NCBI GenBank assembly: GCA_002840125.1
Contig: PGZF01000001.1
Coordinates: forward strand, 811,237-875,236
Source of the DNA: Gammaproteobacteria bacterium HGW-Gammaproteobacteria-15
GTDB taxonomy: Bacteria; Pseudomonadota; Gammaproteobacteria; Enterobacterales; Alteromonadaceae
Direction of reading: 5' to 3'
Length of the DNA stretch: 64,000 nt
A model generated the notes under the pieces. The model was not told the DNA's origin. It searched no databases and saw only the letters and a program-made list of their open reading frames with translations. Shown piece after piece: positions 19,733 to 26,234 of this stretch (position 1 is its first letter; each line of letters begins with the position of its first letter). The position numbers and the translations under genes are program-made.

Positions 19733-20272
19733 ATGGCGATACAAACGGCGACGTTTGGTGCAGGCTGTTTTTGGTGCTTAGAGGCCGCCATGAATCAGGT
19801 TAAGGGCGTTATCCAGGCCTTAAGCGGTTATATGGGCGGTGAAAACAGTTTTCCTACTTACGAGCAGGTATGCCGGGGAGATACCGGCCACGCTGAAGTG
19901 GTGCAGGTGCAGTTTGAAAACAGCATGATAAGCTTTGAGCAGTTATGTTTGATTTTTTTTAGTTTACACGACCCTACCCAACTGAATCGTCAGGGTAATG
20001 ACGTTGGTACCCAGTACCGCTCTGTGGTGTTTTATCATAATGACGAACAGTTACAACTGGTGCGCGGCGTAATGGCTGAGCTGGAACGTACCCAGGTATT
20101 TACTCAGCGCATTGTGACAGAAGTTAGCCCGGCAGGCCCGTTTTACGTGGCCGAGGAGTACCATCAAGGTTATTTTCTGCAACACCCCGGCCAAGGTTAT
20201 TGCCAGTTTATCGTGGCCCCCAAAATGGCCAAGTTCAGACAAAACTACGCTAAGCTACTCAAGCCAGACTAA
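19733..20272 (+). CDS. msrA: MsrA, peptide methionine-S-sulfoxide reductase
   Basis: A 179-residue enzyme that reduces methionine-S-sulfoxide in oxidised proteins and free methionine. The catalytic cysteine is in FGAGCFWCLE (about residue 11). GYMGGE, GHAEVVQVQF, HDPTQLNRQGNDVGTQYRS and EEYHQGY are family hallmarks. AGGAGAGAC precedes the ATG. A bidirectional terminator follows directly. Unlike E. coli MsrA it lacks an N-terminal extension. Confidence 0.96.
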   Translation: MAIQTATFGAGCFWCLEAAMNQVKGVIQALSGYMGGENSFPTYEQVCRGDTGHAEVVQVQFENSMISFEQLCLIFFSLHDPTQLNRQGNDVGTQYRSVVFYHNDEQLQLVRGVMAELERTQVFTQRIVTEVSPAGPFYVAEEYHQGYFLQHPGQGYCQFIVAPKMAKFRQNYAKLLKPD

Positions 20273-20309: not shown

Positions 20310-20480
20310 TTACAGCGGTGTATAGCTCACACTAAGACCGAAGTTTGTGCCTTGAGTGGCATAGCCATGGCTGGTGTAATAGTCTTTATCAAACAGGTTA
20401 TCGACTTTAGCACGTAAAGTTAATGCCGGTGATACGGTATAACTGGCGCCTATCCCCCATAAGGTAAAGCCGCCTAAATA
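20310..20480 (-). pseudogene. Severed 3' end of a btuB-type TonB-dependent receptor
   Basis: About 56 codons encode a TonB-receptor C-terminus, starting at YLGGFTLWGIG, with VDNLFDKDYY and the terminal YTPL. It matches the last 55 residues of the complete btuB at 23694-25463 at roughly 60 percent identity by my count. The match breaks at a TA dinucleotide where an IS630-type end begins. There is no start codon and no upstream half on the other side of the IS, so it is a remnant. Base composition and the neighbouring shared terminator suggest it is the native btuB tail. Confidence 0.8.
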
Positions 20481-21606
20481 ACTGAGCCTAACTCTGCTAC
20501 ACCCGCAGCAAGCCATGACCGCCTCCCGGAAACGGAGCTGCCTTATCCATAAAATGCTCAACCTGCTCCAGTAAATCATCCATCGTTTTGCAGCAGTGGT
20601 TGCGTGTGATGGTCTCGTGCCAGGCATGCCACAGCTTCTCTATTTTGTTAACCCACGGGCTGTAAACCGGTTGGAATAACAAACTCGAACTTCGGGTTAT
20701 TCCTCAGCCAGACTAATGTCTTGCGGCTCTTGTGGATAATGCAGTTATCCACCACCAGCGTAATCGTCTTGGCCCGCCGGTACTGCCGTTTCAGCTTGTT
20801 CATCAGGTTGATAAACAGCTCTGAGCTTTTACTCGTTGAACCAACATAGGTTATTTGGCCTGTTTTGCTGTGTAGCGCGCCAGCCAGATAATGTTTTTTG
20901 TTCTTGCCAGGGGTTACCACCAGCCGCTGCTTGCCTTTATAGCCCCAGTCAGCACCGATTTTCGGGTTCAGGTGGATATCCACCTCATCTTCATAAAACA
21001 CCGGATGCTCAGCGCTGCAATTATTCAACGCCTCATATATCGCCGCCAGTTTCTCCGCTTTAGCCGGGTCTTTTATCCGCAGTGTCGGTGCGGCCCTGCG
21101 CCAGACAATACCGATTTGTGGCAATAAACGCCGTATCGTTGAACTGTGCACCTTCAGCCCCGTCAGTCGCTTCAGTACTCCACTGAACAACTCTGTGCTT
21201 CAACGCAAGCGCGGATAACCTATATCTCTTGGCCGATGCTCAATAAATAGCTTGAACACATTGCTAATAAAGGCTGTAGGCAACTGCTGAGGTCGACCTG
21301 TGCACTGGCTTTTTGCCAGCCTGTCGTACCAACGATTCACACTGGAGCGTGCCGCTTGCAAAGCGGCTGCAACCTCTACTCTGGTTTTATCCTGTAGCAC
21401 CAGCAACACCGCGTTGGCTCTGCGGCTTAAGGCTTTATCACGGCTGCGCTGGACAATTTTTCTTAAACGACGGGTTTCAGTGCCATGCAAAAATACTATT
21501 TTATTCATACTCAATGCGTTTTGTTGGTCTATTAGTTTGGCAGCCGCTCAGATCGTGCAAACCGCATTGAGTCCCTTTCTCTTAGTGACCTACTGTTAAA
21601 AACAGT
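20481..21606 (-). mobile_element. IS630-family insertion sequence, decayed
   Basis: About 1.13 kb containing a broken IS630-type transposase. Candidate ends are TAACTG-N4-TAAC on the left (20479-20492) and its inverted form GTTA-N4-CAGTTA on the right (21595-21608). Both are bounded by TA, the target duplicated by this family. The size fits IS630 elements. The match between ends is short, so exact borders are provisional. The left border coincides with the point where btuB-tail similarity stops. Confidence 0.6.
20497..21514 (-). pseudogene. IS630-family transposase, inactivated
   Basis: Three fragments together make one DDE transposase. 21514-21200 encodes the N-terminal helix-turn-helix region. 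21199-20648 continues in the same frame after a TGA that replaces an expected Trp codon (...YPRLR-stop-STELFSG). The last part (20682-20497) is in another frame, because an extra T near 20680 shifts reading just before FQPVYSPWVN. Catalytic residues are visible: Asp in FYEDEVDIHL, Asp in VVDNCIIHKS and Glu in NKIEKLWHAW. With one nonsense codon and one frameshift the enzyme should be dead, barring programmed recoding. Confidence 0.85.
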
Positions 21607-21793
21607 TACTTAGATATATGTTAATAGCGCACTCACCCTAAAACAAAAGATTTTCCGTAGAAACTGTGGCTATGTATGTCATTTAGTCATGAATATAAAT
21701 CAACACTAAATGCTAACTAATCATGCAGTCTGTACAAATAACAAACAATAAATTCATTGGAATAATTTAATTTACATAAAAAACACAAATAAA

Positions 21794-21822
21794 TTGACAC
21801 ACATATTAGGTAACATTACAAT
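21794..21822 (+). promoter_or_regulatory. Strong sigma70-type promoter of the island genes
   Basis: TTGACA (21794-21799), a 17-bp spacer, then TACAAT (21817-21822), in an AT-rich setting 28 bp before the ATG at 21851. The apparent TTG start of a longer reading frame here is the -35 box itself. Confidence 0.7.
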
Positions 21823-21850
21823 AACCAAAATTGAAATAAAAAGGTTACTT

Positions 21851-22867
21851 ATGAAAAAAATTTTACCTGTACTATTGATCGTTCCAAACTTATTAGAAGC
21901 AGCTTTCATAGATACTATGTTTGAAGATAAATGGACTGAGGCTAATAAATACATTTATCCGTTAGCAAATTGGCACATAAAGAAAAGATTATCTTCAGAT
22001 AAGATGAATCATGATGAGCATGCAAATTTTTGGGCGATAGACTACGTATTATTAAATAATGCATATATTCAAAATATGGGATTAAACACAGACATTGCAT
22101 CATGCAAAGCTAGGAAATATAATGATAATCCTTCATGGATAGATGGCCCCGTCAGAGATCCAGTAATAGGTTCTGACGGCATCCCAGTTTATACCGTATT
22201 GCAAGGCGAGCTATATAATTTAAAGCAAAGAGATTTATCAAAAAGAGGTAAGGAAAGACTTAGAGATCACTATTTTTCATGGATAATTCCGGGAGAAAGT
22301 ATTGTACATAATCCAAAGAAAGAAGATCCTGATACACAGTATAAATTCTCTAAAGATGTAACTGTTTTTAATTTAGCATTAGTTGAAGAATGGAAATTCA
22401 CAGCATCATGGGGCGGAAGTTACTCAGACTCTGGAGAGTTTTATGGCGAAATTCCTAAATTCAAGTTTGCAGGTGGTGATGCGCTTACTCGTTATTCTTG
22501 TAATTACTATAGAGTCAAAGCAGTGAAAAATACTGCACCCACTTTTACCAGTGAATTCAAGCAAATAGATGCACCTCCGCATCCAGACTACCATAATTTG
22601 CCTTTTGCTGGTTGGCATATAGGAATTACTGATAGAGAATCCCCCGTCGAGGAACTAACTGTGAGCTGGAAGTTTGAATTCAAAGATGGCCGTATTGAAT
22701 ACGCATCAACAAGAGGTCAGCATAGTAAAACATTGGGAGAGGGTGCGGCGGCAGGCCGTTATCCCAGGCCATATAATAATGCGCTATTCCATCCCAACAC
22801 AGTGAAAAAGCTTACGGTCACAGTGAGCGATGGTAAATTATCAACAACCAAGATTTCATTATTTTAA
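21851..22867 (+). CDS. Unrecognised exported protein, AT-rich island gene 1
   Basis: A 338-residue protein that I do not recognise. It opens with a short signal peptide (MKKILPVLLIVPNLLEAA), and AAAGG lies upstream. The mature part is rich in Trp, Tyr and charged residues. It has only two cysteines (in IASCKAR and RYSCNYY), which could pair. The C-terminal 80 residues (from VEELTVSWKFEFKDG to VKKLTVTVSDGKLSTTKISL) look like an extracellular beta-sandwich of the Ig/PKD type; this is a pattern guess. Base composition is far more AT-rich than the flanking genes, implying horizontal acquisition. The next gene starts one base after its stop, so the two are a coupled pair. Confidence 0.7.
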   Translation: MKKILPVLLIVPNLLEAAFIDTMFEDKWTEANKYIYPLANWHIKKRLSSDKMNHDEHANFWAIDYVLLNNAYIQNMGLNTDIASCKARKYNDNPSWIDGPVRDPVIGSDGIPVYTVLQGELYNLKQRDLSKRGKERLRDHYFSWIIPGESIVHNPKKEDPDTQYKFSKDVTVFNLALVEEWKFTASWGGSYSDSGEFYGEIPKFKFAGGDALTRYSCNYYRVKAVKNTAPTFTSEFKQIDAPPHPDYHNLPFAGWHIGITDRESPVEELTVSWKFEFKDGRIEYASTRGQHSKTLGEGAAAGRYPRPYNNALFHPNTVKKLTVTVSDGKLSTTKISLF

Positions 22868-22868
22868 T

Positions 22869-23651
22869 ATGAAGCATATTATAACTTTGGTTTTATTGGC
22901 AATAGTAGCAGCATACGCTGCTACTATTGCTTCAATTAATAATTCTACTCTTGCAGAATCCATTTCAACCGAAATTAATATAGAAAAAATTCATAGCGAT
23001 CCACATTATAAAAAGGTGAATCACACAGAAAATAAAGACTATATTGTTAATAAACAAATAGAATTCTACAACCACCCCCCCTATGAAAAATACTACACAA
23101 GTAAGAATCAAACAAGCAGAGATGCATTTTATGAAATTACGTGCTCTAAGATAAAAAATGATAATGATAATGATAATGATAATGATAATGATAATGATAA
23201 TGATAATGAATCAATGCTAGATGATATATATAATGAGACAAGTAGTAGCGAAATAAATAATATATGTAAAAATATAGATTTCACCCCATCAATAGAAAAA
23301 TATAAATACTTATTAAATGAAATAAACAATGGCTTCGAAAAAGAATACGAAATATCAAACCTCTCACACATTAGCAACAAAGAGGCTATTAGTTGGAAAA
23401 TTAAATCATTATACTATAGCGAAGAATCCGAATTTGAGCTTATAAACCATATAGAAGATTTAAAAATAGAAGACAAATATGTAGTATTTCTGAGCATAGT
23501 GTATCCAGATATTTCAATATCAGAAATAAACGCTTATTCAGAAAATACCAACTACAATGAACTATATGAGATGGCGTTGGAATACACAATTTCGGATAAA
23601 CATAGAAAGAAAAAAATACTATATGATCTTGTAGAAAATAAATACAATTAA
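22869..23651 (+). CDS. Unrecognised exported or membrane-anchored acidic protein with Asn-Asp repeat, island gene 2
   Basis: A 260-residue protein of unknown function. An N-terminal hydrophobic stretch (IITLVLLAIVAAYAATIA) could be a signal peptide or membrane anchor. Residues about 97-113 are eight Asn-Asp dipeptides encoded by an AATGAT hexamer repeat. The rest is strongly charged (Glu, Lys, Asn) and mostly helical. The ATG at 22869 is one base after the stop of gene 1; a longer frame to 22830 overlaps gene 1 and is less likely. Codon use and AT content match gene 1, not the core genome. The two genes probably act together at the cell envelope. Confidence 0.68.
   Translation: MKHIITLVLLAIVAAYAATIASINNSTLAESISTEINIEKIHSDPHYKKVNHTENKDYIVNKQIEFYNHPPYEKYYTSKNQTSRDAFYEITCSKIKNDNDNDNDNDNDNDNDNESMLDDIYNETSSSEINNICKNIDFTPSIEKYKYLLNEINNGFEKEYEISNLSHISNKEAISWKIKSLYYSEESEFELINHIEDLKIEDKYVVFLSIVYPDISISEINAYSENTNYNELYEMALEYTISDKHRKKKILYDLVENKYN
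23157..23209 (+). repeat. AATGAT hexanucleotide microsatellite, 8.8 units
   Basis: Uninterrupted AATGAT units, in frame with island gene 2, encode (Asn-Asp)8-Asn-Glu. Because the unit is six bases, slippage would change the protein by whole dipeptides without shifting the frame. Confidence 0.95.
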
Positions 23652-23660
23652 ACCATACAA

Positions 23661-23685
23661 AGCCTGCACAATATGTACAGGCTTA
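23661..23685. terminator. Hairpin between island gene 2 and btuB, possible bidirectional terminator
   Basis: AAGCCTG/CAGGCTT arms extended by ACA/TGT around one mismatch, located between two convergent genes. U-tracts are poor on both strands (TAAATT and TTTGTATGG), so termination efficiency is uncertain. Confidence 0.5.
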
Positions 23686-23693
23686 AATTACGA

Positions 23694-25463
23694 TTACAAT
23701 TTATAGTTTAATTCGAGACCTACTACAATACTAGAGCTTTCATAACCAAGCACTGTCTGATATTTCTTATCGGTTAGATTGTCAATTTTAGCTCTAACCG
23801 TCAGTGCCGATGATACATCATAGCTACTGCCAATCCCCCATAGGGTAAAACCACCTAAGTAGTTACTCCCTGATTGGAACGTACTGCTTTGATAGTCTGC
23901 GGATATATAGCCTGATAGCTTATCCCAGCTGTGTGTTGCACGCCAGTTGATGGTATGTTCTGGCCGTCTGGCCAAGCGCAATCCGGTCAGGGTATTTTCA
24001 GTATCAGTCCAGCTATAAGCAAAGTTTTGCTGAATACCGGCAACATCGGCCTGAATGGCCAGCTCGATACCGGAAATTTTTGCCTGTTCAATATTCTGCG
24101 GCATATAGTTCGCATCAAGCTGGATTAGGTTATCGACATCATTCTCAAACCAGGCCAGTTGCACACTGCCATTCGCAGCACGGTAACTGATTGCAACTTC
24201 ATCCGATAAGGTACGCTCAGGAGCTAAATCCGGGTTGGAGCTGTCGGGATAATATAAATCATTAAAGGTTGGCGCTTTAAAAGCTGCTCCTCGGCTAATC
24301 CTTAGTTGCCAGGCATCAGTAAACCAGTAACCCGCAGCCAATTGCCAGGTGTTGTTGCCACCATACTGCGTGGTTAAATCACGCCGTACCGAGCCATCTA
24401 ATTGCACATTGTCCTGTTTATAGTTCAGGCCCGTAAATAGCGCACGGTTAATCCGGCTGTCTTCAACGTAGTTAACGCCAGAACGGCCAACGCTTTCCGA
24501 ATACCAGTTCGCCCCACCCAACCAATTCAGATTATCAGTGATGGCGGTGCTGGTTTGATAGTTAAACTCATCACGCTCAGTTACAAATGGGCTACTGGAG
24601 TCCGGGCCGTAGACAGTGTCATCATCCAGTACCCGGCTTAATTGTGCCTGATGCTGCCACTGCCCTGATTGATGCTCCCAGCCGAGCAGGTAAGTACGAT
24701 TAAGGGTATCGGCTTGGTCTTCAGTGCCCCAACCTGTATCGAACTGATAAAAGCCGGAATTAATATCAAACTGAGCCCGTAACAAACCAAAACTGGTCTG
24801 ATAATCGGCGGCCAGTTTAGCAAAACGTTGATCATAACCATCGCGATCCGGATCAAGATCTTTACGTACATTAAAGCCGTCAGCCTGGCTATAACCGGCA
24901 GTTGCTCTTACGGCAAGATCGCCAACTTGCTGACTAACACTCACATCAGCACCCAACTGCCCATAACTACCTACATTGGCATTAAGCTCTGTACCCTGAG
25001 CCTTGCGCGTAGTAATAGCGATGACACCAGACAGAGCATCGGCACCATACCAGGCAGCCCGTGGGCCACGCACAACTTCTATACGTTCGATCAGTTCCAG
25101 CGGTAACATTGACAGTGTTTTATACCCCAACGTAGCCGAGCCACTGCGCACGCCGTCGATAATTACCAGCGTATGGCCGGTATTACCGCCGCGGATATAA
25201 ACACTGCTGTTTTGGCCACGGCCGCCATCGCGGGATAAGTTAATACCCGGCAGTTGCGCCAGTAAGGCGGGTAAATCATTAGCCTGGCGCGCTACGATAT
25301 CGTCACGCTCCAGCACGGTTACACTGGCCAGCACGTCTTGTTGCGGCGTGGCGGTGCGGTTAGCATAAATACTGATATGTTCAAGATTAGTGTGTTCAGT
25401 AGTGTTAGCTGCCGCAGAGCAGCAAGATGCGACCAGCACGGCCGCAAAAGCAGGTTTAAACAT
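23694..25463 (-). CDS. btuB: BtuB-type TonB-dependent vitamin B12 receptor
   Basis: A 589-residue outer-membrane receptor. A signal peptide (FAAVLVASCCSAAA) is followed by a TonB-box-like stretch (LEHISIYANR). The plug domain (about 45-160) has LPALLAQLPGINLSRDGG, VYIRGGNTGHTLVIIDGVR and EVVRGPRAAWYGADALSGVIAI. The rest is a 22-strand-type barrel ending in GLELNYKL. The ATG at 25463 has GGAGC upstream; the longer frame to 25493 runs into the leader hairpin. Cobalamin-riboswitch control supports B12 import. The last 60 or so codons are visibly AT-richer than the remainder, and a second, different btuB tail lies at 20310, so the 3' end may be foreign. Confidence 0.92.
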   Translation of the reverse strand: MFKPAFAAVLVASCCSAAANTTEHTNLEHISIYANRTATPQQDVLASVTVLERDDIVARQANDLPALLAQLPGINLSRDGGRGQNSSVYIRGGNTGHTLVIIDGVRSGSATLGYKTLSMLPLELIERIEVVRGPRAAWYGADALSGVIAITTRKAQGTELNANVGSYGQLGADVSVSQQVGDLAVRATAGYSQADGFNVRKDLDPDRDGYDQRFAKLAADYQTSFGLLRAQFDINSGFYQFDTGWGTEDQADTLNRTYLLGWEHQSGQWQHQAQLSRVLDDDTVYGPDSSSPFVTERDEFNYQTSTAITDNLNWLGGANWYSESVGRSGVNYVEDSRINRALFTGLNYKQDNVQLDGSVRRDLTTQYGGNNTWQLAAGYWFTDAWQLRISRGAAFKAPTFNDLYYPDSSNPDLAPERTLSDEVAISYRAANGSVQLAWFENDVDNLIQLDANYMPQNIEQAKISGIELAIQADVAGIQQNFAYSWTDTENTLTGLRLARRPEHTINWRATHSWDKLSGYISADYQSSTFQSGSNYLGGFTLWGIGSSYDVSSALTVRAKIDNLTDKKYQTVLGYESSSIVVGLELNYKL

Positions 25464-25495: not shown

Positions 25496-25514
25496 AATAA
25501 TGTTGAAGGTTTTT

Positions 25515-25655
25515 TTCCGGCCGGTCTCCGGGCTGACAACCTGCTTGCGCCTGTGCTCGCCTTCCCATCTTTTGACAGTGGCATTGAACACAGCTCAGTT
25601 GTTTACCGTTGCGGGGGCAGCTCTGGATTAACACCAGATTCCCGTTTACCTGCAG
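25515..25655 (-). ncRNA. Cobalamin riboswitch upstream of btuB
   Basis: Read on the minus strand the leader contains, in order, GGGAATCTGGTG, the conserved core GCTGCCCCCGCAACGGTAA, a variable helix, and the B12-box region TGTCAGCCCGGAGACCGGCC. These are the hallmarks of the adenosylcobalamin aptamer. It lies about 50-190 bp upstream of the btuB start. Binding of adenosylcobalamin would lower btuB expression. Outer boundaries are approximate. Confidence 0.93.
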
Positions 25656-25671
25656 TTGACTGCAGCACCAG

Positions 25672-25697
25672 AAAAAGCGGCTCCCTATCGGAGCCGC
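25672..25697 (-). terminator. Terminator-like hairpin behind yajQ, at the btuB transcript start
   Basis: On the minus strand, GCGGCTCC-GATAG-GGAGCCGC is followed by TTTTTC, a classic intrinsic terminator for yajQ. The btuB promoter candidate (25702-25729) lies just upstream, so this hairpin would also form the first about 20 nt of the btuB RNA. Confidence 0.8.
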
Positions 25698-25751: not shown

Positions 25752-26234
25752 CTAATCGCGGAAGTTTTTAAATTGGAACGGCTGGCCCAGCTCGCTGGTG
25801 CGCACCAATTGCATAGCGGCCTGCAAATCATCACGCTTTTTACCGGTTACCCGCAGCTCTTCACCCTGGATCGCCACCTGCACCTTAATATTGCTATCCT
25901 TAACCAGTTTAACGATTTTTTTTGCCATCTCTTTATCGATGCCCTGCTTGATACTGACATGACGGGTGATAAATTTGCCGTGACGCTCTTCTTTTTCAAT
26001 CTTGAAACTACTGACATCCAGCTGCAACTTGCTGGCTTTCATGGCAAAAATATCAAACAGCTGCATCACTTGCTGGTCGGCTTCAGCGGTCAGCTCAATT
26101 TGCTCTTTGTTCAGCTCAATTTTGGCGTTAACGCCACGAAAATCGAAGCGGGTTTCAAGTTCCCGTTTGGCATTATCTACGGCGTTCTTCGCCTGATTCA
26201 TATCAATTTCTGAAACAATATCGAATGAAGGCAT
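25752..26234 (-). CDS. yajQ: YajQ family nucleotide-binding protein
   Basis: A 160-residue YajQ (UPF0234) protein with two ferredoxin-like RNA-binding-type folds. It has the conserved start [26 protein letters not shown], and a C-terminal [12 protein letters not shown]-like segment ending [10 protein letters not shown]. YajQ proteins bind nucleic acid, GTP or ATP, and some Xanthomonas relatives bind cyclic-di-GMP to act with transcription factors. It is monocistronic, with its own terminator. Confidence 0.95.

Follow-up and report, generated by a model that had tools for sequence, protein, structure and literature searches.

The window analysed here is a 64,000-nt stretch of a genome from the Rheinheimera/Alishewanella group in which the vitamin B12 receptor gene btuB has two 3′-ends. 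The intact btuB occupies positions 23694-25463 on the minus strand and, counted from the probable start codon, encodes 589 aa; the same strand carries another btuB 3′-end at 20310-20476, and the two ends are 61% identical at the amino acid level over 54 residues (E 2.9e-14). Between them lie an IS630-like element and two plus-strand ORFs. The features of the locus are as follows.

19733-20272, plus strand: msrA (peptide methionine sulfoxide reductase), native flank (Pfam PMSR, 3e-63)
20310-20476, minus strand: displaced original btuB 3′-end, last ~55 codons and stop (nucleotide match to relatives, tail tree)
20474-21613, minus strand: complete IS630-like element with a broken transposase frame, apparently inside the displaced btuB tail (NF033545; full-length copies elsewhere)
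21614-21643, minus strand: putative short continuation of the displaced btuB tail past the IS (19/30 nt in register with btuB of relatives)
21794-21822, plus strand: promoter-like site TTGACA-17-TACAAT before orf1 (consensus scan, 11/12)
21851-22867, plus strand: orf1, 338 aa, likely exported
22869-23651, plus strand: orf2, 260 aa, hydrophobic N-terminus, (DN)n repeat
23660-23684, minus strand: terminator-like hairpin behind the hybrid btuB (11-pair stem, then a T-rich tail)
23694-23940, minus strand: last ~82 codons of the hybrid btuB, of foreign origin (change-point, ≤62% amino acid identity, GC 0.41)
23941-25463, minus strand: native btuB part with signal peptide, plug and most of the barrel (amino acid identity to relatives, Pfam domains)
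25502-25687, minus strand: cobalamin riboswitch before btuB (Rfam RF00174, 110 bits, E 9.6e-28)

The product of the intact gene contains TonB receptor and plug domains (Pfam). Its best model is the B12-receptor family TIGR01779 (404 bits, E 1e-120), yet the score stays below the curated cut-off of 599.7. TonB plug and barrel, the match to the B12-receptor model, and the cobalamin riboswitch are all features of the BtuB vitamin B12 receptor. The gene is the sole copy in the genome (best match 1330 bits, next 54 bits). Since it is single-copy and preceded by a riboswitch, any rearrangement that retains its reading frame should be favoured.

Five close relatives (G009, G014, G015, G002 and G025) have a plain yajQ-btuB-msrA order. 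Their btuB and msrA genes are convergent and 41 bp apart, and the gap between them is filled by one hairpin common to both. The left btuB tail of the window leads into the same hairpin at the msrA terminator and shows 88-91% nucleotide identity to the native btuB ends of these relatives; at the amino acid level, the identity is 94% with G025, 90% with G002, 88% with G015, 85% with G014, and 83% with G009. The tail of the intact gene, in turn, shows ~60-73% nucleotide identity to the native ends over the alignable parts. Two tandem btuB genes were found in none of the relatives examined. Among 31 genomes of the genus, the window genome is the only one that combines a hybrid btuB with a displaced tail. 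A preliminary description of the locus had pointed to the two btuB 3′-ends, had noted that the msrA terminator could also serve a minus-strand gene, and had taken the left tail for the original end of btuB; the comparison with relatives bears out all three points, and the gene order and btuB end (matching 20310-20480) that it had foretold for relatives lacking the island were indeed found.

The body of the intact gene is native. Its barrel is 97%, 96% and 94% identical at the amino acid level to those of G009, G014 and G015, respectively. When the whole gene is compared with that of G009, identity is 95% up to position 23940 and 60% beyond it. The change-point was placed at 23940 (interval 23937-23944) with a log-likelihood gain of 100, against a maximum of 8.6 in 200 shuffles; the same breakpoint was recovered with G014 and G026 (within 2 bases) and with G015 (within 3), and the reading frame is kept across it. 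In a comparison with thirty genus genes, identity over the last part of the gene never exceeded 57%. Phylogenies of the two parts disagree: in the body tree intact btuB groups with G009, G014 and G015, while in the tail tree its end is placed apart, with the divergent G013 (support 0.93), and the left fragment falls among the ends of G025, G015, G009 and G014. The sharp drop of identity at 23940 and the discordant body and tail trees identify btuB as a chimera, and since the ends of relatives match the left fragment and the trees disagree, this fragment is the gene's own original end, now ~3.4 kb from its former place. We conclude, with a probability of about 0.93, that the last ~82 codons (14 percent) of the intact btuB are foreign and that its native tail has been displaced.

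The composition of the new end was also compared with that of its surroundings. The foreign tail has a GC content of 0.41 and a GC3 of 0.37, vs 0.50 and 0.48 in the body, and a GC content as low as this is seen in 2.3% of equal-length stretches in the window outside the island. Values for orf1, orf2 and the stretch right of the IS are 0.37, 0.27 and 0.26. A donor of the btuB tail was sought among 84,980 genomes and in 247 genomes of the family, and no sequence exceeded 62% amino acid identity. The hybrid protein would be expected to work as a B12 receptor. The preliminary description had read the AT-richer last codons as a sign that incoming DNA supplied the btuB end and had suggested that a btuB phylogeny would be discontinuous near the 3′-end, and both statements hold. 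Its wider picture needs adjustment: the insertion does affect the btuB 3′-end, but the breakpoint lies at 23940 and not at the stop codon, and of the 3-kb AT-rich island described there, only ~21614-23693, with the two ORFs, is AT-rich, whereas the IS630-like part has 49% GC. The results named there as speaking against insertion, tandem btuB genes in relatives or a continuous phylogeny, did not appear.

Several other observations concern variability of this region within the genus. btuB is mosaic in its barrel: the genes of G002 and G025 (L016, L017) are 92-93% identical to that of the window before the equivalent of position 25044 and 60% identical after it, and share the window's native tail. 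The neighbouring yajQ (25752-26234 in the window; counterparts in L009-L037) comes in two very different types, ~87-98% or ~56-60% identical to the window's gene, with a distribution that departs from btuB relationships; in G024, yajQ is inverted. In several genus members (L047, L049, L052 and L053) a single gene lies between btuB and msrA, facing btuB, and encodes a protein of ~260 aa that is probably secreted (..CYEDKQLLPYY..). The slot behind btuB varies between clades of the genus.

The left border of the island is formed by the IS630-like element, whose ends (20474 and 21613) were set by full-length copies in other genomes. It has the features of its family, namely a transposase scoring above the NCBIfam cut-off (NF033545), conserved ends, and TA at both borders. 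On the minus strand immediately to the right of the IS, the codons GGT GAG TGC GCT ATT AAC ATA TAT face GGC CAG TAT GCC GTT AAC GAA TAC of the relatives in the btuB register. An equally good btuB match occurs at 2-4 of 127,940 window positions (p ~2e-5) and at 0 of 4,100 in the island. This 30-nt piece has 63% identity, vs ~89% in the rest of the displaced tail, and falls where btuB sequences of the genus vary most. This continuation did not show up when all 237 nt to the right of the IS were aligned locally with gaps, and no btuB sequence is recognisable beyond 21643. The resumption of btuB homology right of the IS would place the element within the displaced tail and the start of the foreign segment near 21640, with ~60 nt of the native gene lost between the two junctions. 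The position of the IS within the displaced tail is supported, though less firmly than the chimera, and the IS is probably a passenger; the left junction near 21640, read from 30 nt at 63% identity, is the weakest part of the reconstruction. The left part of the IS is ~95% like copies in G014, and ~21134-21433 is only 45-77% like any copy found; the IS may be a mosaic or may simply contain a part of the transposase that varies more within the family.

Delimited in this way, the foreign segment (~21640-23940) would comprise a promoter, two orphan ORFs, a terminator, and a btuB 3′-end. The two ORFs are 1 bp apart behind the TTGACA-17-TACAAT site, and their hydrophobic N-termini suggest that both products are exported. 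No relatives of either were detected in Pfam, NCBIfam, PHROGs or PADLOC, nor in genome sets of the genus (31), the order (395) and the class (369). For orf1, collections of phages, plasmids, viral contigs and 84,980 genomes likewise gave no relatives, as did viral contigs for orf2; the contig scans extend to close relatives only. Single-sequence structure prediction gave a mean pLDDT of 32 for orf1 and 40 for orf2, too low for the folds to be informative, and sequence searches of the PDB matched nothing meaningful. Within orf2, AATGAT hexanucleotide repeats at 23157-23208 encode (DN)n, and a change in their copy number would leave the frame intact.

We propose that btuB was entered by a piece of foreign DNA whose source is a relative not yet sampled, and which brought a btuB 3′-end, its own terminator, and a two-gene operon facing it. 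On one side, a homologous crossover inside btuB at 23940 would have kept the frame and generated a hybrid B12 receptor. On the other side, the incoming DNA would have been joined without long homology near 21640, at a point of native btuB some 60 nt beyond the crossover, and the original btuB end pushed aside rather than deleted. The IS630-like element would probably have entered the silent fragment later. Given a chimera with a displaced native tail, we infer such a one-sided integration with an illegitimate join, similar to homology-facilitated illegitimate recombination (HFIR), in this order of events, with moderate confidence. It is favoured because it yields the kept frame, the retained tail, and the ~60-nt loss in one event. 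HFIR combines one homologous and one non-homologous junction (PMC3240628), and the breakpoint inside btuB, with the frame kept, has the character of the former. What speaks against an HFIR-like process is the ~60 nt lost vs ~2.3 kb gained, whereas in HFIR the recipient usually loses about as much DNA as is inserted (PMC3240628); the chimera, moreover, is seen in one genome only. No donor came to light that would reveal microhomology at the left joint. The genome encodes ComEC, but E. coli has it too, so its presence says nothing about competence.

The same arrangement could have been produced in other ways. A circle carrying a btuB 3′ fragment and cargo could have integrated by a single crossover in btuB, with part of the left copy deleted afterwards. 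The displaced native tail follows directly from such an event, a circle has already been proposed for Rhs tips (PMC2935791), and shortened circles gave partial duplications in E. coli (PMC3240628). This model predicts, however, that the left native btuB is complete from the breakpoint onward and preceded by donor btuB; with ~60 nt missing and no recognisable btuB past 21643, a second deletion is needed, which makes the circle an unlikely route, if the strongest of the alternatives. We are slightly more doubtful that the IS630-like element itself made the left junction by inserting into the btuB tail or beside it, with deletion or recombination of the adjoining DNA. Its place at the island's left border and the difference between its left and middle-right parts, as if two IS copies had recombined, would fit, the latter only if this difference exceeds normal variation within the family; but ~30 nt of in-register btuB past the IS fit a simple insertion and make an IS-made deletion less likely.

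The preliminary description had likened the locus to elements that enter a gene's 3′-end and restore it. Prophage e14 integrates in this manner at an 11-bp repeat, giving icd/icdC (PMC4759930), and the product at btuB is alike: an intact gene with an element-supplied end and a displaced native end opposite. The likeness stops at the product. As had been noted at the outset, no integrase is visible, the island holding only orf1, orf2 and the IS630 transposase; the longest direct repeat common to both junctions measures only 7 bp, away from the breakpoint, vs 11 bp for e14; ~60 nt of the target are missing; and the new end is ~60% identical to the old one, whereas that of e14 differs by 12 SNPs. 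Lacking both integrase and core repeat, a site-specific element that has since lost its integrase was rejected as improbable. Least probable are two tandem btuB paralogues, most of one removed by the IS or by a deletion, an alternative also raised in the preliminary description. It would explain why two btuB 3′-ends point the same way, but it is contradicted by relatives and trees and was rejected: the single btuB of relatives unites the body of the intact gene with the end of the left fragment, and the break at 23940 runs through the intact gene itself.

C-terminal displacement is known mainly from toxin-type genes, in which the new tip is presumably selected. The gene affected at this locus encodes a vitamin transporter, is present in one copy, and has an end that needs to remain functional. 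As reconstructed, the locus shows foreign genes entering behind a conserved gene without an integrase, with the gene not destroyed and its old end left as a scar. A hybrid gene accompanied by its orphan native tail is a pattern open to genome-wide searches, which would reveal the frequency of such gene capture. A bolder and, in our view, improbable reading makes the conserved 3′-end of this single-copy receptor gene a landing site for integrase-free cargo, with the two exported orphan proteins acting on the accompanying receptor, e.g. shielding BtuB from phages or bacteriocins; if it were true, each entry would bring a compatible receptor end and leave a working hybrid receptor. orf1 and orf2 are tied to BtuB by position alone.

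Among known systems, displacement of Rhs tips (Jackson et al. 2009, PMC2935791) is similar in that the body is kept, a new C-terminus is acquired in frame via recombination in the body, the old C-terminus is left dissociated downstream, and intervening genes are carried along. Rhs tips, however, are non-homologous and belong to polymorphic loci, often with long arrays and with core sequence attached, whereas here a homologous beta-barrel end of a transporter gene was exchanged once and the displaced end has no recognisable body sequence. Displacement of T6SS effectors in Vibrio cholerae, for which an HFIR-like process was proposed (PMC5361080), involves, as proposed for btuB, an incoming module (there of effector and immunity genes) anchored by homology on one side and joined illegitimately on the other, and the old 3′ part is shifted downstream; it swaps toxin and immunity genes, while at btuB the anchoring gene encodes a nutrient receptor and unrelated orphan genes make up the cargo. 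HFIR (PMC3240628 and references therein) would share the pair of homologous and non-homologous junctions, but its cases combine insertions and deletions of similar size with 3-10 bp of microhomology, compared to ~2.3 kb in and ~60 nt out here. The e14 insertion in icd (PMC4759930) also leaves an intact gene with an incoming 3′-end and the native one beyond the insert, but is a prophage with an 11-bp repeat, and the btuB insert has neither integrase nor core repeat. Thus, the product is that of C-terminal displacement as known from Rhs and T6SS effector genes: a native body, a C-terminus from another lineage, an abrupt breakpoint, and the old C-terminus kept downstream. What differs is the type of gene, since btuB is no polymorphic toxin or Rhs-type gene and its new end is homologous. 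The event works like C-terminal displacement without being a member of that class. The locus is clearly a scar, if an unusual one, and does not amount to a new system; it is set apart by its gene, which encodes a nutrient receptor, exists in one copy, and received a homologous and presumably functional end, followed by unrelated cargo.
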